Part shown: positions 3,145 through 52,599 of the stretch, piece after piece
Numbering within the stretch: the first letter of the stretch is position 1
Layout of the letters: each line of letters begins with the position of its first letter
Origin: Deltaproteobacteria bacterium
GTDB lineage: Bacteria; Bdellovibrionota_B; Oligoflexia; Oligoflexales; Bog-1112
Direction of reading: 5' to 3'
Assembly (NCBI GenBank): GCA_016186945.1
Contig: JACPKR010000006.1
Span: forward strand, 1 to 54,643
DNA: 54,643 nucleotides
Notes under the pieces: model-generated
What the model was told of the DNA's origin: nothing
Database searches by the model: none
What the model saw: the letters and a program-made list of their open reading frames with translations, nothing else
Made by a program: the position numbers and the translations under genes

Positions 3145-3345
3145 ATATAGTATTCGGGAAAAAGAATTTGTGGAGAGGACCTTTTTTTGAAAAATGGATC
3201 CCGCGGTCAAGCCGCGGGATGACAAAGTTCCCCTCCACACCTCCCCCCAAAAAACTTCAAATACTGAAGTTTTTGAAAAAGGGCTTGGGGAAATGACTTT
3301 TTTCAAAAAGTTTTTCCCCAAATTGATTATCTTGAACAGTATAGA
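3145..3345. repeat. Dispersed element B, full copy
   Basis: About 200 bp starting ATAGTATTCGGGAAAAAG and ending CTTGAACAGTATAG. It contains the ATCCCGCGG/CCGCGGGAT hairpin, the run CCTCCCCCCAAAAAACTT, an AAAACTTCAAATACTGAAGTTTT hairpin (split arms AAACTTCA and TGAAGTTT) and a TTTTTTCAAAAAG stretch. Related copies lie at 1, 33104, 39462, 40582 and 47362. This copy separates the divergent genes at 3123 and 3406, so their promoters must lie in or next to it. Confidence 0.9.
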
Positions 3346-3818: not shown

Positions 3819-3857
3819 CTGGATTGCTTCGTCGGGCTTCACCCTCCTCGCAATGAC
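3819..3857 (-). repeat. Short dispersed repeat C (GTCATTGCGAG type)
   Basis: Reads on the minus strand as GTCATTGCGAGGAGGGTGAA followed by GCCCGACGAAGCAATCCAG. A near-identical copy in the opposite orientation lies at 34457-34495. It sits in the gap between the convergent genes ending at 3783 and 3904. Short repeats of this general form occur in many bacterial genomes; no function is evident here. Confidence 0.75.
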
Positions 3858-3903
3858 GGCAGTGCCATTAAGGTATGAGTGAAAAAACTATCTGGTCACA
3901 ACA

Positions 3904-18230: not shown

Positions 18231-18374
18231 CGTAATGCGTAGCCACTTGGGGCAAATAGGGAGAGGGGGGTTGGGGGGGCGAGTGATGCGTCGCCTCCCC
18301 CGGATTTCTTGGAGGAACCAGCTGCGCAGTTTCCTCCAAACCACCTCCTTGCCCCAAGTGGCTTACCCATTACG
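18231..18374. repeat. Dispersed element A, full copy
   Basis: About 145 bp with terminal inverted repeats CGTAATGCGTAGCCACTTGG and its complement ending CCCATTACG. Inside are GGGAGAGGGGGGTTGGGGGG, then GGAGGAACCAGCTGCGCAG followed by TTTCCTCC, an imperfect palindrome, and CCACCTCCTTGCCCC. Other copies or parts lie at 22186, 26719, 30857, 41930, 44350, 46316, 48947, 51184 and 52446. The whole unit can fold into a long hairpin with an inner hairpin. Confidence 0.92.
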
Positions 18375-22185: not shown

Positions 22186-22240
22186 GTTGGAGGGGCGACG
22201 GTTCCCTCGCCCCTCCAAACCTCCCTCTCCCTTAGTCAGA
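22186..22240. repeat. Partial element A
   Basis: TTGGAGGGGCGACGGTTCCC then TCGCCCCTCCAAACCTCCCT and CTCCC match the G-rich core of element A in reverse orientation, without the terminal arms. It separates pdhC from the oxidoreductase gene. Confidence 0.7.
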
Positions 22241-26718: not shown

Positions 26719-26854
26719 AACGACTTGGGGCAAGGAGGTGGTTTGGAGGAAACTGCGCAGCTGGTTCCTCCAAGAAATCCCTTAGGGGAGCGACGCTTCA
26801 CTCGCCCCCCCAAACCCCCCTCTCCCTATTTGCCCCAAGTGGCTTACGCATTAC
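26719..26854. repeat. Dispersed element A, full copy (reverse)
   Basis: Right arm TTGCCCCAAGTGGCTTACGC followed by ATTAC, left arm ACTTGGGGCAAGG, with the GGAGGAAACTGCGCAGCTGG then TTCCTCC palindrome and the run CCCCCCAAACCCCCCTCTCC. It sits immediately upstream of the fabF start codon. Confidence 0.9.
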
Positions 26855-30856: not shown

Positions 30857-31021
30857 ACCCCAAGGGATTTCTTGGAGGAACCGTAATGCGTAAGCCACTT
30901 GGGGCAAATAGGGAGAGGGGGGTTTGGGGGGGCGAGGGAACCGTCGCTCCCCCAAGGGATTTCTTGGAGGAACCAGCTGCGCAGTTTCCTCCAAACCACC
31001 TCCTTGCCATAGGCGGCTTAA
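30857..31021. repeat. Dispersed element A, full copy plus partial duplication
   Basis: A full unit from CGTAATGCGTAAGCCACTTG (30882) to the end near 31020, where the right arm has decayed to CTTGCCATAGGCGGCTTA. It is preceded by a short duplicate of the inner part (CAAGGGATTTCTTGGAGGAA, 30860-30880). It lies between korB and gap. Confidence 0.88.
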
Positions 31022-32009: not shown

Positions 32010-33104
32010 ATGAAAAAAATCAGGGTGGGGATCATTTTTGGTGGACGCTCGGCTGAGCATGAGGTGTCCCTGCAGTCAGCGCGTAACGTCATAGCTGCTA
32101 TAGACAAAAACAAGTACGAAGTCCTGCCCATTGGTATCGACAAGTCGGGACGATGGTTGCTTGCTGATCAAAGCACTCCTCTTCTTAATGCGTCCGATCC
32201 AAAACTGATCAAACTCAACCATGCCTCCTCAAAAACTGTAGCCCTTCTTCCCAGTGAGGGAACGGAACTTATCAGCGCCGATGACTCACAGAATCTGGGC
32301 AAAGTCGATGTTGTGTTTCCCCTTTTGCACGGCCCCCTAGGGGAGGACGGTACGCTTCAGGGCCTCTTGCGTTTTGTCGATGTCCCCTGCGTTGGCCCCG
32401 GAGTTTTAAGCTCAGCAGTTTGCATGGACAAAGTAGTCACGAAAAAACTTCTCCAACACGCTGGGATTCCCACCCCAAACTTTCTCAGCTTTAAGTCGTC
32501 GGAAAAAAAGAGCATCAGCTATCAGAAAGTGAAGGACCGCCTAGGTGCGACTGTCTTTGTCAAACCCACCAACCTAGGCTCAAGTGTAGGGATCAACAAA
32601 GCTAGTGACGAAACATCTTTTGAAAAAGCTGTCGAGGAAGCCTTCACGTTCGACCACTGCATCATCGTGGAAACTTGTATCGTGGGACGAGAAATCGAAA
32701 TCGCTGTCCTGGGAAATGAAGATCCCGAAGTTTCCGTCCCAGGAGAAATTATCCCCAACGACACCTTCTACTCCTACAATGCTAAATACATCAACGCAGA
32801 TGGCGCAAAACTTATTGCACCGGCTGTTTTAGATCCAAAAGTCGAAGAAAAAATTCGTGACCTGGCAAAACAAACGTTCACGACCCTTGCCTGTCAAGGG
32901 ATGGCACGCATCGACTTTTTTGTCACCAAACACGATGTCTATGTCAACGAAGTCAACACAATCCCTGGATTTACTAATATCAGTATGTACCCCCGCTTGT
33001 GGCAAAAATCAGGCCTTAGTTACGAAAAACTGATCGACAGACTCATCCAACTCGCTCTCGAGACCCACAAAAAAGATAAAAAATTGAAAAGGAGTTATAA
33101 TTAA
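32010..33104 (+). CDS. ddl: D-alanine--D-alanine ligase
   Basis: 364 residues starting MKKIRVGIIFGGRSAEHEVS. ATP-grasp features: SLQSARNVIAAID, PLLHGPLGEDGTLQGLLR, VGPGVLSSAVCMDKVVTKKLL, VFVKPTNLGSSVGI, EIEIAVLGNEDPEVSVPGEI, and the Mg-binding C-terminus ARIDFFVTKHDVYVNEVNTIPGFT. It makes D-Ala-D-Ala for peptidoglycan. The ribosome binding site is GAGAGGAA. The stop codon TAA at 33102-33104 lies at the left edge of an element B copy. Confidence 0.97.
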   Translation: MKKIRVGIIFGGRSAEHEVSLQSARNVIAAIDKNKYEVLPIGIDKSGRWLLADQSTPLLNASDPKLIKLNHASSKTVALLPSEGTELISADDSQNLGKVDVVFPLLHGPLGEDGTLQGLLRFVDVPCVGPGVLSSAVCMDKVVTKKLLQHAGIPTPNFLSFKSSEKKSISYQKVKDRLGATVFVKPTNLGSSVGINKASDETSFEKAVEEAFTFDHCIIVETCIVGREIEIAVLGNEDPEVSVPGEIIPNDTFYSYNAKYINADGAKLIAPAVLDPKVEEKIRDLAKQTFTTLACQGMARIDFFVTKHDVYVNEVNTIPGFTNISMYPRLWQKSGLSYEKLIDRLIQLALETHKKDKKLKRSYN

Positions 33105-33299
33105 GTATTTGGGAAAAAGAATTTGTGGAGAGGACCTTTTTTGAAAAATGGATCCCGCGGTCAAGCCACGGGATGACAAAGTTCCCCTCCACTCCTCCCC
33201 CCAAAAAACTTTAAATGCTGAAGTTTTTGAAAAGGGGCTTGGGGAAATAACTTTTTTCAAAAAGTTTGTCCCCAAATTGATTATCTTGAACACTATAGG
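33104..33299. repeat. Dispersed element B, full copy
   Basis: AGTATTTGGGAAAAAGAATT through GGATCCCGCGGTCAAGCCAC (one mismatch in the hairpin stem) and AACTTTAAATGCTGAAGTTT to TTATCTTGAACACTATAG. It lies between the ddl stop and the LRR lipoprotein gene and reaches within 20 bases of that gene's start. Confidence 0.9.
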
Positions 33300-34395: not shown

Positions 34396-34456
34396 TCCAA
34401 CGGATTGACGACAATAGGCTGCTATCCAGGGCTGACGCAAAGTCATGGAAAAGGTC

Positions 34457-34495
34457 GTCATTGCGAGAAGGGTGAAGCCCGACGAAGCAATCCAG
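34457..34495 (+). repeat. Short dispersed repeat C
   Basis: GTCATTGCGAGAAGGGTGAA then GCCCGACGAAGCAATCCAG; nearly identical to 3819-3857 but in the opposite orientation. It lies 36 bases before the aminotransferase start. Confidence 0.75.
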
Positions 34496-38913: not shown

Positions 38914-39450
38914 TTATTCAAAAGGAAAGTCATCTTTCGGCCATTTTGACTCCCATGCGCAATTAAGGCCGAAGGCAAGAGCAATCGCTACCGCATCGCT
39001 TGCATCAAAGGGCAGCGCTCCCTTTTGAAAGCCCAACAAAGATTCGAGCGCGAGATTAACCTGCTGCTTGTCTGCGTGACCTTTGCCACAGACGATGCGT
39101 TTCACCGTTGTTGATGCGATCTCCCTTACAGCAATCTGACAGCGCGCCGCAGCAGAGATGAACGCCCCCCGCGCCTGCCCCAGCTTGAGGGCAGATTGCG
39201 CGTTTTTCGCCATGTAAACGTTTTCCATCACGCAGACAGACGGTTTGAACTCCTCAATCAACGTATGCATAGACGTGTGCATCAACCCTATACGTTGCCA
39301 GACCTGGAAATTTGCTTGCGCCCGCAGCACCCCCGCTTCTATGATGCGAAAATCTTGCGGACCAATCGGAGACGTTTTCACCGTCTCGATGACGGCAAAT
39401 CCAGCAAGTAGAGTGCCGGGATCAATACCAAGTATCCGTTTTGTACTCAT
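38914..39450 (-). CDS. ruvC: Holliday junction resolvase RuvC
   Basis: 178 residues. Catalytic Asp in RILGIDPGTLLAGFAVIE, Glu in VCVMENVYMAKNAQSALKLGQARGAF, and the C-terminal Asp pair in FDASDAVAIALAFGLN. The basic helix KRIVCGKGHADKQQVNLAL is typical. It cuts Holliday junctions with RuvAB, which are not in the window. Element B begins 12 bases upstream of its start. Confidence 0.96.
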   Translation of the reverse strand: MSTKRILGIDPGTLLAGFAVIETVKTSPIGPQDFRIIEAGVLRAQANFQVWQRIGLMHTSMHTLIEEFKPSVCVMENVYMAKNAQSALKLGQARGAFISAAARCQIAVREIASTTVKRIVCGKGHADKQQVNLALESLLGFQKGALPFDASDAVAIALAFGLNCAWESKWPKDDFPFE

Positions 39451-39461
39451 TATGCACGTCC

Positions 39462-39569
39462 GACACCTCCCCCCAAAAAACTTTAAATATTGAAGTTTTT
39501 AAAAAGGGGCTTGGGGAAATAACTTTTTTCAAAAAGTTTGTCCCCAAATTGATTATCTTGAATACTATG
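39462..39569. repeat. Dispersed element B, right half
   Basis: From ACACCTCCCCCCAAAAAACT through the AACTTTAAATATTGAAGTTT hairpin to TTATCTTGAATACTATGG. The left half with the CCGCGG hairpin is missing. It separates the divergent ruvC and hemB. Confidence 0.88.
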
Positions 39570-39588
39570 GATCGACTGGAGCTAAACA

Positions 39589-41927: not shown

Positions 41928-41929
41928 TT

Positions 41930-42064
41930 TCCTTGGAGGAACCAGCTGCGCAGTTTCCTCCAAACCACCTCCTTGCCGTAATGGGCGAGGGAACCGTCGC
42001 TCCCCCATGATTTTTCTTGGAGGAACCAGCTGCGCAGTTTCCTCCAAACCACCTCCTTGCCCCA
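41930..42064. repeat. Two partial copies of element A
   Basis: CTTGGAGGAACCAGCTGCGC and the following TTTCCTCCAAACCACCTCCT occur twice (41933-41977 and 42016-42060), separated by GTAATGGGCGAGGGAACCGT. The terminal arms are largely missing. It begins just after the LolC/E stop. Confidence 0.85.
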
Positions 42065-44349: not shown

Positions 44350-44517
44350 GTGGCAAGGAGGTGGTTTGGAGGACAGTAAAGCGTAAGCCAACCGGGGCAA
44401 ATAGGGAGAGGGGGGTTTGGGGGGGCGAGTGAAGCGTCGCCTCCCCCGGGATTTCTTGGAGGAACCAGCTGCGCAGTTTCCTCCAAACCACCTCCTTGCC
44501 CCGGTTGGCTTACGCTT
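44350..44517. repeat. Dispersed element A, full copy with changed arms
   Basis: The arms here read AAGCGTAAGCCAACCGGGGC and its perfect complement ending GGCTTACGCTT. In other copies the same arm is GCGTAAGCCACTTGGGGC. The changes occur in both arms and keep pairing. A short extra piece (GGCAAGGAGGTGGTTTGGAG) lies at 44352-44371. Confidence 0.9.
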
Positions 44518-44993: not shown

Positions 44994-46466
44994 GTGAAGG
45001 CAAAAGGAGTCTTTTCTCCAGAGGACAATTTCGAGGATCACCGCCTTTTTTGCTACGGCACGAATCACCGGGTTGCAAAGTTGTCCTTTCGTGAAACATT
45101 CTACCTAGGGCATGAAGAGCTGCTGTCGGTACTTCCGAAAGTTTCAGGCAGCCACCAGGTTTCCGAACTAGCCGTCCTGTCAACATGCAATCGTTTCGAA
45201 ATGTATGGCGTCCTGTCAGATCATGTCCCCTCACAACGAGAACGCCTCGACCATGTTTGTACAGACCTGCTGAGACACGCAAATAAGACGACGATACCCA
45301 AGCTTTCCGAACTGACTCCTCAAATCTATTGCCTGACGGGGGATGACGCTGTCTCTCACGGGTTTGCGGTAGCCTCCAGTCTTGATTCACTGGTTGTCGG
45401 GGAAACGCAAATCACTGGGCAATTCAAGGATGCCTTTCAAATCGCTCGACAAGCAAATACACTCGGCCCTCGCCTACACTTTCTGTCCCAACAAGCCCTT
45501 CGCGTAGCCAAAAGAATACGAAACCAGACGGGTATAAGTCAGAAGGTTGTATCCATAGGACACGCCGCTCTGGATCTCGCTAAAAGAGTGTTCGGCAATC
45601 TAAGCGAACAGCAAGTCCTCATCATCGGGGCAGGTGAAATCGCAAAAACGACCGCAAAGTACGCCAAGAAACAGGTGAAAGATATCCATATACTCAACCG
45701 CACCCTCGCCCATGCTCAAGCCCTCGTGGAAGAATTAGGACTTGGATACGCGGGTTCCCTTGATGCTTTGGCAGAGAAACTAACAAGTGCGGATATCGTC
45801 GTGACGGGCATTACGACTGCGAAGCCGATTATCACGGCCGAGTTGATGAAAGATGTGATGATGAGGCGGCGGAATCGCCCGCTCTTTATAGTAGACATCG
45901 GCCTTCCGCGTAATGTTGAACCAGAATGTGAAGCGTTTGAGCAAGTCTACCTTTTCGAGATTGATGACCTTCGGCAAATCGTTGATGAAAACTTGGAAGA
46001 GCGCAAATCTTCCTTTCAAGACGCAAAACAAATTATCTTGGACTCACTCGACCTTTTTCGAGCTAAACGTCGCTACGAAAACTTTTCGTCAACCTTTTCT
46101 GAATTTCGACAGTACGTTTATGGGATTGTTGAGAGAGAAACAACAAAGTCTACGCGAGATTTTACGGAAGAACAAAAGATCAGCCTGGAAATGATGGCAC
46201 GTTCTGTGGCTGAAAAAATGACAGCTGACTTTGTTTGTGCGCTTAAAAAATCTGAGAAAGACGAGGCTAAAAGAGAGGTCGTGAATTTCATGCAGAATAT
46301 GATGACGAAATCTTTGCTTGGGGCAAAAAGGGAGAGGGGGGTTTGGGGGGGCGAGGGAAAAGCCTGCCCAGAGCGTAGCCGAAGGGTCGCTCCCCCAGGG
46401 GAATTCATGGAGGAACCAGCTGCGCAGTTTCCTCCAAACCACCTCCTTGCCCCAAGTGGCTTATGA
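44994..46466 (+). CDS. hemA: Glutamyl-tRNA reductase with repeat-encoded C-terminus
   Basis: 490 residues; GluTR is usually about 420-430. Catalytic Cys in SELAVLSTCNRFEMYGV, FAVASSLDSLVVGETQITGQFKDAF, NADPH loop VLIIGAGEIAKTTAKYA, and DIGLPRNVEPE. It reduces Glu-tRNA to glutamate-1-semialdehyde. From about residue 442 on the protein is encoded by an element A copy (KRERGVWGGEGKA, EFMEEPAAQFPPNHLLAPSGL). The stop overlaps the hemC start as ATGA, and both lie at the right end of the element. The start is GTG behind AAGGAAAA. Order hemX-like, hemA, hemC. Confidence 0.95.
   Translation: MKAKGVFSPEDNFEDHRLFCYGTNHRVAKLSFRETFYLGHEELLSVLPKVSGSHQVSELAVLSTCNRFEMYGVLSDHVPSQRERLDHVCTDLLRHANKTTIPKLSELTPQIYCLTGDDAVSHGFAVASSLDSLVVGETQITGQFKDAFQIARQANTLGPRLHFLSQQALRVAKRIRNQTGISQKVVSIGHAALDLAKRVFGNLSEQQVLIIGAGEIAKTTAKYAKKQVKDIHILNRTLAHAQALVEELGLGYAGSLDALAEKLTSADIVVTGITTAKPIITAELMKDVMMRRRNRPLFIVDIGLPRNVEPECEAFEQVYLFEIDDLRQIVDENLEERKSSFQDAKQIILDSLDLFRAKRRYENFSSTFSEFRQYVYGIVERETTKSTRDFTEEQKISLEMMARSVAEKMTADFVCALKKSEKDEAKREVVNFMQNMMTKSLLGAKRERGVWGGEGKACPERSRRVAPPGEFMEEPAAQFPPNHLLAPSGL
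46316..46466. repeat. Dispersed element A inside hemA, with nested insert
   Basis: The G-rich core GGGAGAGGGGGGTTTGGGGG, a 24-base nested piece containing CAGAGCGTAGCCGAAGGG that is missing from most other copies, the AACCAGCTGCGCAGTTTCCT palindrome and the arm CTTGCCCCAAGTGGCTTATG. It is read in frame as the last ~48 codons of hemA, and its last bases form the hemC ATG. Confidence 0.92.
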
Positions 46467-47383
46467 TTAATGTAGCTACACGGGGAAGTAAACTTGCACT
46501 GTGGCAAGCCGAGTTTGTCCGGGAAAAATTGAAGTCGATCGGTGTATCGGCGCAGTTGAAGGTTGTAAAAACGACAGGAGACATCATCCAGGATAAACCC
46601 TTGCATGAATGGGGGGGCAAGGGCGTTTTTGTGAAGGAAATCGAGAAAGCCCTGCTCGATAGAGAGGCTGATATTGCTGTACATAGTTTGAAGGACCTTC
46701 CGGCAAACATAGAAAGCCCCTTTGTCCTACCCTGCATTTTCGCAAGACACCCTGCTCATGACGTCATCGTCTTGTCGAAACAGCTTGCGAAAAGGTTCGC
46801 GGGAAAGGAAATTCTGTCGCAGGACGACTTCCGAGATTCGACACCATTAAAAATGGGAACAGGCAGTTTGCGCCGCTCTTGGCTCCTGCGCTCTGTAAAT
46901 CCCCAGCTCGCGATTCTTCCCATGCGGGGAAATATCGACACTCGCCTCAAACGCTTGCAAGACGGTGATTTCGACGCCATCATACTAGCAGGTGCTTCCT
47001 TATACCGTTTGCCCTTGGCTCAGGACTTGGCCGCGTTCACCCTCGACCCCGTATGGTTCGTCCCCTGTGCAGCGCAAGGAGCACTGGCGGTGGAAACACT
47101 GAAAGATCATCCCTTGGTAGGAAAACTTCGACACCTTACGGATGCTACAACGGAAAGACTTGTCGCTATAGAAAGGAAAGTTCTAAGTCTTCTTGGTGCC
47201 GACTGCAATTTACCTGTAGGCGTGCACGCACGCGAAGAAGGAAATACGGTTCGCTGCCGAGCAGTCTTATTTGACGAAACCGGGAAAGAGTCACGATCCC
47301 AGGCTGTTTTTGCAAAGTCGATACCTGCCGACGATTGCGCCCAACAAATCTTCGAAGCACTCTATAGTGTTCAATATAATTAA
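46463..47383 (+). CDS. hemC: Hydroxymethylbilane synthase (porphobilinogen deaminase)
   Basis: 306 residues. Cofactor-binding Cys248 in LLGADCNLPVGVHA, and TRGSKLALWQAEFV, KVVKTTGDIIQD, AVHSLKDLPANI, GTGSLRRSWLLR, RGNIDTRLKRL. It polymerises porphobilinogen on a dipyrromethane cofactor. The start overlaps the hemA stop (ATGA). The final residues LYSVQYN and the stop codon are made by the end of an element B copy. Confidence 0.97.
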   Translation: MINVATRGSKLALWQAEFVREKLKSIGVSAQLKVVKTTGDIIQDKPLHEWGGKGVFVKEIEKALLDREADIAVHSLKDLPANIESPFVLPCIFARHPAHDVIVLSKQLAKRFAGKEILSQDDFRDSTPLKMGTGSLRRSWLLRSVNPQLAILPMRGNIDTRLKRLQDGDFDAIILAGASLYRLPLAQDLAAFTLDPVWFVPCAAQGALAVETLKDHPLVGKLRHLTDATTERLVAIERKVLSLLGADCNLPVGVHAREEGNTVRCRAVLFDETGKESRSQAVFAKSIPADDCAQQIFEALYSVQYN

Positions 47384-47530
47384 TTTGGGGACAAACTTTT
47401 TGAAAAAAGTTATTTCCCCAACCCCCTTTTCAAAAACTTTAGTATTTAAAGTTTTTTGGGGGGAGGTGTGGAGGGGAGCTTTTTTTCAAAAAAGGTCCTC
47501 TCCACAAATTCTTTTTCCCAAATACTCTAG
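47362..47530. repeat. Dispersed element B between convergent hemC and msrBA
   Basis: CTATAGTGTTCAATATAATT through the ACTTTAGTATTTAAAGTTTT hairpin to TCCCAAATACTCTAG. The hemC stop (47381) lies in its left end and the msrBA stop (47527) in its right end. With its hairpins and A/T runs it looks suited to terminate both transcripts. The CCGCGG hairpin is absent. Confidence 0.9.
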
Positions 47531-48579
47531 CGTTCTTTACTGCCCCAGAACTCTTCCAGACGTTTGTCCCGTCCGCAGTTGAAACGATAGACCCGATATA
47601 GGATAGGGTGTTTTTTATAGTACTCCTGATGGTACTCCTCTGCCTTGTAGAATTCCCCAGCTTCCGAAATGGGCGTAGCGATCTTCAGGTTTTTAGCTTC
47701 CTCTATGGCCTTTCGGGAAGCTTCCGCCAGTTTTTTCTGTTCGGCATTGTGATAGAAAATCTCCGAGCGATACTGATTCCCTACATCGCAGAACTGTCTA
47801 TCTTTCGCAACCGGATCCACGTTATGCCAAAAAACATCGAGGAGTTTTTCATAGGTAATCTTGGAAGGATCAAACATCACTTCCAAAGCTTCCGCATGGC
47901 CTGTTCCGCCGGCCGAGACCTCCTTGTAAGTTGGGGCCTGCTTTTGTCCCCCCGTATAACCTACGCTTGTTGAAATAACTCCATCCACTTCGTCGAAAGG
48001 TTTCTCCATGCACCAGAAACAACCACCTGCAAAGGTCGCTTTAGTTTGCTCTGTCATCCCTTGACCCCCCTTTTCCGCAAATAAGGGAAGATAGCGCTCG
48101 TATCCTTCCTCCTTTAATTTCTCCACGGGAATAAAGCGAAGCGCTGCTGAGTTAATACAGTAACGTAAGCCCGTTGGTGCTGGTCCGTCGTCAAATACAT
48201 GGCCCAAGTGTGAGTCGGCGAGTTTTGATCGCAGCTCGATTCGTTTTGTGAAAAAATGATAGTCATCGCGGCTAACAAGGTGCTCGGGTTCTAGCGGCTG
48301 GAAAAAAGACGGCCAGCCGGTTTTGGAATCGTACTTGTGGGTGGAACTAAAAAGCGGCTCTCCCGAAACAAGATCCACATAAATGCCAGGCTTTTTGTTG
48401 TCCCAATATTCATTGTCGAAGGCTCTTTCGGTGGCCTCTTCCTGCGTTACCTTGTATTGAAGGGGGCTAAGGGTCTTTTTCAATTCGTGCTGATTTGGCT
48501 TTCTGAACTTCATATCCTGCGCACCTAGGAAAAAAGATGACGAAAATGTTACTGCAAGTAGGATAAATCTTGAATTCAT
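47527..48579 (-). CDS. msrBA: Secreted MsrB-MsrA methionine sulfoxide reductase fusion
   Basis: 350 residues. A hydrophobic N-terminus ([18 protein letters not shown]) suggests export. An MsrB domain (about 35-155) has catalytic Cys141 in [12 protein letters not shown] and the motif GWPSFF, but lacks the zinc-binding CxxC pairs ([10 protein letters not shown] where CGxxLF is usual). An MsrA domain (about 180-340) has catalytic Cys187 in [12 protein letters not shown] and [13 protein letters not shown]. Together they reduce both sulfoxide forms of methionine in periplasmic proteins. The order MsrB then MsrA is one of the known fusion arrangements. Confidence 0.95.
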
Positions 48580-48642
48580 ATTGTTACTGAGTCCTTTGTT
48601 AGTCTACTTATTTTTCATCGTCCGATACGCTTGGAAAGATAA

Positions 48643-49425
48643 ATGATTCTTGAGAACTTAAAAAAAACAATCATATGGACACGTTCCCGTGAAGATTGGG
48701 AGGAGGACATCCAGTTTTTTGCAGGGCTTCCCGTGATTCATCTTCCCTGCATCAGCATCGAGTTGCTCGAGATTTCCAATTTACCGGAAATCGGGGGCAC
48801 TTGCGTCGTTGTTTTTACGAGCAGAAAGGCTGTTCAGTATTCCTTTCGGATTCCTCAAATGACAGTGATTCTGTCCAACTCGAAAACGCGAGTTTATTGC
48901 ACGGGAGAAAAGACTGCTGCGGAAGTCTCTCGACAGATGGAAATCTTGGGGGAGCGACCCTTCGGCTACGCTCTGGGCAAGCTTTTCCCTCGCCCCTCTC
49001 CCTTTAAGGATTTCCGTTGTAGCACGCAGGACACCATCCTTCTGCCCGGTCCCGTAGAGCGAGCCATCCCTCTAGCTGAGGAACTTAATAAGCAAGGTCT
49101 GAAAGTTTTCCCTCTCGACCTTTACAGAACCAAGTCTCGTCTTACCCTCTCCGACGGGACACTACCGACACCGGAGCAGAAAGCGTTTCTGATGGACTCT
49201 TTAAAAGGAGTTGTTTGTTTTCTCAGTCCATCTGCTGTCCTCGGTTTTCGAATTGCTCTGCGCCCGGGGATGAATCGCTTAGGAAGAAATCTTCACGCGG
49301 TGGTCATCGGAGAAACTACGAAAAAAGCCTGCGAGGGGACTTTTGAAACTATACATGTCGCGAAGAAACATTCAGTTGTCGAGGTCGTCACCATCGCCAG
49401 ACGCTTAGTGGAAGCTAAGGCTTAG
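48643..49425 (+). CDS. hemD: Uroporphyrinogen-III synthase with repeat-derived insert
   Basis: 260 residues. HemD is poorly conserved, but the pattern fits: IIWTRSREDW at the start, VVVFTSRKAVQYSF, VYCTGEKTAAEV, ILLPGPVERAIPLAEEL, KVFPLDLYRTK, VVCFLSPSAVLGFRIAL and VVIGETTKKACEGTF. It closes and flips hydroxymethylbilane to uroporphyrinogen III. Residues about 102-121 (ILGERPFGYALGKLFPRPSP) are encoded by a piece of element A in reverse orientation, in frame, at a point where family members have a variable loop. Its last 21 bases overlap the convergent lipoprotein gene. Confidence 0.88.
   Translation: MILENLKKTIIWTRSREDWEEDIQFFAGLPVIHLPCISIELLEISNLPEIGGTCVVVFTSRKAVQYSFRIPQMTVILSNSKTRVYCTGEKTAAEVSRQMEILGERPFGYALGKLFPRPSPFKDFRCSTQDTILLPGPVERAIPLAEELNKQGLKVFPLDLYRTKSRLTLSDGTLPTPEQKAFLMDSLKGVVCFLSPSAVLGFRIALRPGMNRLGRNLHAVVIGETTKKACEGTFETIHVAKKHSVVEVVTIARRLVEAKA
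48947..49004. repeat. Element A fragment embedded in hemD
   Basis: TGGGGGAGCGACCCTTCGGC then TACGCTCTGGGCAAGCTTTT and CCCTCGCCCCTCTCCC is the reverse complement of 46348-46397 in hemA, with one mismatch and a short deletion in the C-rich part. It shares the nested AGAGCGTAGCCGAAGGG piece with the hemA copy. Confidence 0.88.
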
Positions 49426-51057: not shown

Positions 51058-51363
51058 CGGCTTTTCCCGTTATATGGCAGTTCCTCTATGTTGCCAAGTT
51101 TTCAAGCCTCCATGATTAGACGAACGGAGTTTTATTTCCCAAGCTTGAGACTATTTTGTAAGCCAGTGGAACCATTCGGTAACCCGTAAGCTGTTTGTGG
51201 CAAAATTTCTTGGAGGAACCAGCTGCGCAGTTTCCTCCAAACCACCTCCTTGCTCCTTTCCATAATCCAAACCACCTCCTTGCCATAAGAAGCGAGTTAC
51301 CTTGCCATAAGAAGCGAGTTACGCTAAAAACGCATGATTCCTTAATGAATTGACGTAGGTTTT
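51058..51363. other. Intergenic region between divergent genes
   Basis: About 300 bases containing the element A remnants listed at 51184 and no ORF with credible start signals. The promoters of the lipoprotein gene and rlmN must lie here; none is clear. Confidence 0.6.
51184..51323. repeat. Element A remnants with tandem sub-repeats
   Basis: TTCTTGGAGGAACCAGCTGC and GCAGTTTCCTCCAAACCACC are the inner palindrome. CCAAACCACCTCCTTGC then occurs twice, and CTTGCCATAAGAAGCGAGTT (plus AC) occurs twice in tandem. This shows slippage or recombination within the element. Confidence 0.85.
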
Positions 51364-52445: not shown

Positions 52446-52592
52446 GGGGTAATGCGTAAGCCGCTTGGGGCGAAAAGGGGGGGGGGGGGTTGGGGGGGGC
52501 GAGGGAACCGTCGCTCCCTCAAGGGATTTCTTGGAGGAACCAGCTGCGCAGTTTCCTCCAAACCACCTCCTTGCCCCAAGTGGCTTACCCTC
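52446..52592. repeat. Dispersed element A with long G runs
   Basis: Arms GGTAATGCGTAAGCCGCTTG and CCAAGTGGCTTACCC. The core has a run of 13 G (52477-52489), TT, then 8 G. The inner GAACCAGCTGCGCAGTTTCC palindrome is intact. It lies between the convergent rlmN and ricT and could terminate both. Confidence 0.92.
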
Positions 52593-52599
52593 TCTCGAT

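Follow-up and report, generated by a model that had tools for sequence, protein, structure and literature searches.

A dispersed palindromic MITE of an Oligoflexia-like genome probably contributes a tail to HemA and an inner segment to HemD

The 54,643-nt stretch studied here (the window; positions 1–54,643 of contig JACPKR010000006.1, assembly GCA_016186945.1, from a Deltaproteobacteria bacterium) contains the heme genes hemA, hemC and hemD, and two of these, hemA and hemD, hold in-frame sequences of a dispersed palindromic repeat that we designate element A. This raises the question of how a repeat came to form part of two enzymes, and at what cost to them. The window is one contig (C75) of a draft genome of 2,661,317 bases in 76 contigs, 91% complete, which is Oligoflexia-like in its sequence; the nearest matches to its HemA were proteins of metagenome-assembled genomes titled Oligoflexia, Oligoflexales and Pseudobacteriovorax, among others. 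The answer that we consider likely is that a miniature inverted-repeat transposable element (MITE) spread in one Oligoflexia-like lineage, that one copy became the tail of HemA, and that an inverted piece was copied between hemA and hemD. A first-pass annotation, made from the letters of the window, had placed repeats in both genes, and these repeats and their positions proved to be real (Table 1).

The element copy in hemA starts at 46317 and encodes HemA residues 442–490, that is, 49 residues instead of the approximately 48 of the first-pass annotation, which was otherwise right about this tail; because the element measures 147 nt, the hemA frame is held up to the TGA that overlaps the ATG of hemC. 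The Pfam and TIGR01035 matches to HemA end at residue 436, before the residues contributed by the element. We aligned HemA with 42 rows from relatives, several of them representing one genome present in two collections and two (L058 and L072) lacking the C-terminus, and the element-encoded tail was seen in none of the 40 rows that reach it; the C-termini of the relatives vary in length, and some carry other tails of their own. The tail is predicted to be disordered, with residues 445–490 below pLDDT 50 in the AlphaFold model and most of the rest confident. HemA keeps 85 of 101 conserved residues (81–94 in five members of the same family). Of 12 relatives lacking the element, five also have the ATGA overlap of the hemA stop and the hemC start, which may therefore be ancestral, older than the insertion, so the overlap that had been credited to element A may be native.

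In hemD, a reversed piece of element A encodes approximately residues 100–121 (48940–49005), as had been proposed, and the reading frame and the conserved motifs run on across it. It would be, however, a replacement rather than the in-frame insertion that was first described. The stretch between the GEKT and LLPG motifs comprises 45 residues in this HemD versus mostly 40–42 in relatives (exceptions being a family member, L112, with 45, three rows with 46, 52, and 57, and fragmentary rows with fewer), and from this anchored length it follows that the element would have taken the place of native sequence, save for about four extra residues; the alignment thus points to the replacement of about 18 native residues by about 22. 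The segment is in no HemD row from relatives, so that for both proteins the comparison with relatives, in which shared segments would have spoken for native sequence, favored an origin in the repeat. Apart from the start and from residues 111–120 (the latter below pLDDT 50), the AlphaFold model of HemD is confident, and it matches uroporphyrinogen-III synthases; additionally, HemD keeps 23 of the 25 residues that are conserved in 19 reference sequences, whereas seven HemDs from the same family keep 19–23. From sequence and model, HemD still looks functional and, by residue counts, both HemA and HemD are as well conserved as their family relatives. This internal replacement is the least usual feature of the case.

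When one is inverted, the hemA copy and the hemD piece agree at 49 of 50 bases, and the hemD piece finds its best match in hemA (score of 97, versus 83 for the next). Both contain a nested segment that had been regarded as private to them. When the hemA copy was used to retrieve similar copies, 18 of the 29 others had some form of this segment, mostly CCCTGAGCAAAGCGAAGGG (one copy, L023, could not be aligned), and only the CCCAGAGCGTAGCCGAAGGG version proved exclusive to hemA and hemD. Because both share this private version within their 49 identical bases of 50, one of the two copies was probably copied from the other, as the first-pass annotation also suspected. The GAGCRNAGNCGAAGGNTC form, allowing up to one mismatch, occurs at eight places in the genome (one with a reversed-pattern control): hemA, hemD, the C-termini of ctaA, speD and a kinase gene (contig C16), and three sites not assigned to any recognized gene (contigs C6, C53, and C2). 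A wide distribution of the nested motif among phyla was not confirmed: in the form of the pattern that we used, it was present at no locus of another organism.

Element A is abundant in this genome. Its core, GGAGGAACCAGCTGCGCAGTTTCCTCC, has 395 occurrences (210 plus 185, up to three mismatches) against none for a reversed-pattern control, which excludes a chance origin. Blast searches with three copies from the window retrieved 98 loci, one per 4.6 kb, in an unselected sample of 454,643 bases (the window plus four stretches of 80–120 kb, 17% of the genome), and the hemA copy itself had 41 matches in its own genome, with 40 candidates scored. With up to one mismatch, the core was found in three of 43 genomes of the order, with 382 occurrences in the host genome, 82 in G007 and 59 in G005, and was absent from a genome of the same genus (G001, itself 75% complete). 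In G007 (loci L136–L145) the core forms both inverted ends of longer units, of roughly 270–490 bp.

Full copies extend from GTAATGCGTAAGCCACTTGGGGC to its complement and measure 143–148 bp, except for the long variant, which includes the nested segment and reaches 169 bp; their terminal inverted repeat, GTAATGSGTAAGCCACTTGGGGC, is found at 200 places with up to two mismatches. In its folded form, the element shows two hairpins enclosed by an outer stem (z of −3.9 for the intergenic copy at 52449–52595 and of −2.2 for that in hemA). Among 39 copies bounded by inverted repeats, 12 lie between direct repeats that match exactly over at least 8 bp and 16 show up to one mismatch over 8 bp, compared to 1 in 1482 mismatched flank pairs used as a control; many of these 39 copies were picked because both ends were listed, one locus was counted twice, and the set includes two 77-bp forms and a few of odd length. 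With its long terminal inverted repeats and 8-bp target duplications, element A is a MITE, i.e., a non-autonomous transposable element.

As to its source, element A ends read GTAA, and IS66-type elements have GTAA ends and 8-bp duplications. However, the host genome has no match to the IS66 transposase (PF03050), and the element ends do not match in sequence those at eight IS66 loci examined in related genomes. An origin from Y1 transposases, or repetitive extragenic palindrome (REP)-associated tyrosine transposases (RAYT), was likewise rejected: none of the four Y1 matches in the host genome is flanked by the core, at two of them (L166 and L168) element A ends lie more than 1 kb away, at about background density, and the exact core was at none of 14 Y1 loci of the family examined. 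Two pairs of inverted repeats about 2.2 kb apart (on contigs C52 and C23) were dismissed as autonomous elements; the gene between the C52 repeats resembles what we take to be an O-antigen ligase, and the C23 ends belong to two separate short copies. Rfam returned no match in the window, its inclusion of Rickettsia palindromic elements (RPEs) being unverified.

The placement of element A is far from random. According to gene calls from a crude, home-made open reading frame (ORF) caller, 60 of the 98 sampled loci are between genes, 16 touch a gene by less than 25 nt, 16 overlap 5′ ends, two overlap 3′ ends and four are inside genes. A stop codon lies within −12 to +15 nt for 42 of the 98 copies, whereas random intergenic placement would yield 3.1 (sd 1.8; maximum of 10 in 300 runs), and in 17 the element itself supplies the stop codon. 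Conversely, only three of the 98 encode at least 16 residues. Among the four inside loci, only hemD has a long first part and scores positively for coding on both sides; in the other three (C14:59425, C6:5643, and C6:66121) the upstream part has no convincing coding score, and they were judged to be over-long ORFs, as were, for their starts, the 16 apparent 5′-end overlaps (6 of them inspected). Element frames were no more open than dinucleotide shuffles in 10 copies, which argues against a built-in role in protein coding and leaves selection for open frames unsupported.

Tails apparently translated from element A recur in at least eight further genes, for proteins GlpD-like, LysC, Maf, Alr, a kinase, UbiG-like, SpeD, and CtaA. 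Besides HemA, the only tail of at least 16 residues in the unselected sample is that of the GlpD-like protein (residues 540–556), and among 23 further copies outside the sample an ORF runs through the element in four (LysC, Maf, Alr, and the kinase); UbiG-like, SpeD, and CtaA came from targeted looks and are uninformative on frequency. The recognized domains end before the element residues, except that those of LysC and Alr are cut or overlapped by a few positions, and the tails derive from both strands of the element and from several frames. In LysC (L029:1434-2840, C3) the ACT domain ends about nine positions early and is followed by a whole reversed copy, and the alanine racemase ORF (L027:1124-2770, C9) passes through a copy and continues for about 120 residues antisense to a helicase-like gene. 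Pieces with the nested segment encode the C-termini of speD (L202:863-1282, C24) and of ctaA (L203:1069-2067, C64), the latter overlapping the start region of ctaB.

Table 1. Location of the heme genes and repeat copies in the window
Feature	Position	Strand	Evidence or remarks
hemA, glutamyl-tRNA reductase, 490 aa including the element-encoded tail	44994..46466	+	TIGR01035 match to residues 19-436 (360 bits); Pfam GlutR_dimer match up to 436
hemC, porphobilinogen deaminase; ATG overlaps hemA TGA	46463..47383	+	Pfam PF01379/PF03900
msrB-msrA fusion, between hemC and hemD	47527..48579	-	Pfam PMSR and SelR
hemD, uroporphyrinogen-III synthase, 260 aa	48643..49425	+	Pfam HEM4, 1.7e-17; AlphaFold model vs PDB 3mw8, E 2.4e-10
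Element A copy (long variant), in frame in hemA; ends degenerate, may extend to about 46471	46317..46463	+	92.5% over 147 nt to another long copy
Nested segment GCCTGCCCAGAGCGTAGCCGAAGGG in the hemA copy	46362..46386	+	
Inverted element A piece in hemD, about residues 100-121	48940..49005	-	98% over 50 nt to the hemA copy; gapped alignment, 12-nt deletion
Intergenic element A copy, both terminal inverted repeats	52449..52595	+	Folds at -79.1 kcal/mol, z -3.9
Element A copy	18232..18368	+	
Partial element A match, left hairpin	22190..22233		
Element A copy	26723..26854	-	
Element A copy	30858..31020	+	
Element A, two cores	41929..42064	+	
Element A copy, upstream of hemA region	44352..44516	+	
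Element A core only	51205..51256	+	
Family B (second palindromic family) copy; HemC takes its last 7 residues and stop from it	47362..47530		Inverted repeats, alignment

The three heme genes lie near one another in 11 of 12 named relatives with a complete HemA. The C-terminus of HemC is, in the alignment, about 20 residues shorter than in relatives, and its end coincides with a copy of a second palindromic family, B (CTATAGTGTTCAA...), also found at 3149–3345, 33104–33299, and 39409–39571. A GATCCCGCGGTCAAGCCGCGGGATGACA hairpin occurs at 1–58, 108–165, 3188–3245, and 33142–33199, the occurrences at 3188 and 33142 being nested in family B copies and the others free-standing, and a third dispersed repeat, of TTGCGAGAAGGGTGAAGCCCGACGAAGCAATCC type, forms an inverted pair (3819–3858 and 34456–34495).

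In the scenario that we favor, a DDE-type transposase would have mobilized element A, a non-autonomous MITE, to hundreds of copies in one Oligoflexia-like lineage, and copies at gene ends may have survived since protein C-termini tolerate change. One copy would have inserted at the end of hemA in an open frame, giving HemA its 49-residue tail, with hemC presumably still reachable by translational coupling; a piece would then have been copied in inverted orientation and in frame between hemA and hemD, about 2.5 kb apart, in either direction, and likely by gene conversion or template switching. More tentatively, we entertain a broader version, in which fragments of a MITE that abuts stop codons would move within genes not only by transposition but also by local copying; the hemD piece would have been written from the hemA copy, inverted and 2.5 kb distant, into the body of an enzyme that works, where it took the place of a native stretch of the fold. 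The related pieces at the ends of ctaA and speD would then make the mobile repeat a portable protein module across heme and housekeeping genes.

Several observations sit less well with the favored scenario. No transposase with element A ends (GTAATGCGTAAGCC) was found in the searches of the IS66 and Y1 families in this 91% complete genome; 22 of the 39 bounded copies have no clear target duplication and neither, as judged by eye, do the degenerate ends of the hemA copy; translation of the segments is read from open frames and conserved flanks; a direction from hemA to hemD relies on hemA holding the whole element; and a low pLDDT may also reflect missing homologs, the alignments behind the HemA and HemD models being shallow (12 and 13 sequences, respectively).

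We weighed these observations against four other explanations. That the element segments gained a function in the protein or the mRNA, such as a regulatory tail, a degradation tag or a 3′-end RNA hairpin, and were kept by selection would agree with the recurrence of C-terminal tails in housekeeping proteins, the strong placement at stop codons and the stable folded structure. We nevertheless find it unlikely, given frames no more open than shuffles, a HemA tail predicted to be disordered, HemA C-termini that differ in length among relatives, and tails drawn from both strands and several frames. Decay of the hem genes, with hemD a pseudogene in frame by chance, seems to us improbable as well, even if three adjacent heme genes are altered (the HemA tail, the shortened HemC and the HemD replacement). 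In a leave-one-out comparison of conserved residues against other families, the host HemD keeps 25 of 27, HemA 80 of 95 and HemC 66 of 77, with HemA and HemC below every relative included, as decay would have it; this comparison is biased because the host genome was outside that set, and the comparison within the family was used instead, for HemA and HemD only. There, HemD is at the top of the family range and HemA in the middle; moreover, the ORFs are intact and the genome also has ctaA and ctaB, for heme A/O.

It is quite improbable that element A is a Rickettsia-type or REP/RAYT element with protein-coding genes as its target: the palindromic sequences that unrelated genes carry in frame and a proximity to stop codons like that described for REPs (PMC3733652) would fit, but the 8-bp target duplications, the lack of a core-flanked Y1 transposase gene and the mere 3 in 98 substantially coding copies would not. 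Finally, that the HemA and HemD segments are native, or an artifact of a draft assembly in 76 contigs, is hardly credible, with segments present in no row from relatives, 395 cores across the genome, and a frame and conserved motifs that continue across the hemD piece. The reading that we retain is that of a spreading MITE followed by copying between hemA and hemD.

Comparison with known systems (PMC10969869, PMC5896051, and PMC3733652) shows that the case joins known translated palindromic and MITE fusions. RPEs are palindromic repeats of about 150 bp that form in-frame parts of unrelated proteins, and nearly half of the first-described ones are located in genes; fusions in frame by MITE insertion are not unusual, RPEs being the extreme (review PMC10969869). 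The resemblance to RPEs that the first-pass annotation put forward therefore holds for behavior, as in-frame reading, but does not extend to membership: element A belongs to another phylum, is mostly intergenic at stop codons, generates 8-bp duplications and has no open-frame bias, and its in-gene copies are rare in the sample (3 of 98 with at least 16 residues, versus nearly half). This comparison was made by description. QMITE1 and QMITE2 from Coxiella burnetii are MITEs that alter gene 3′ ends, giving stop codons or short C-terminal tails, with QMITE2 mainly 3′ of genes; in PMC5896051, however, their tails reach up to 16 residues (Table 2 therein) versus about 50 for element A, which also has the internal replacement of HemD, and their direct repeats span 2–3 or 7–11 nt versus 8. 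REPs of the GTAG and CGTC classes are palindromes that adjoin stop codons near gene 3′ ends, some supplying the stop and some lying within genes and being translated (PMC3733652), whereas element A, at about 146 bp, has the inverted repeats and target duplications of a MITE, and no Y1 partner flanked by its core was found. In the open-access literature we found no earlier description of a MITE in Oligoflexia or of the nested motif.

With these results, the range of translated palindromic elements comes to include an Oligoflexia-like lineage that has its own MITE, whose tails are longer than in the Coxiella cases considered here (PMC5896051). HemD, in turn, offers a testable case in which a repeat fragment, rather than forming a tail, would have replaced a portion of a folded metabolic enzyme. 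Complementation can be used to assay the activities of HemA and HemD, which makes it directly testable here whether proteins can be built in part from genomic parasites and keep their function, and the case suggests how such parasites of bacterial genomes may become parts of working proteins.

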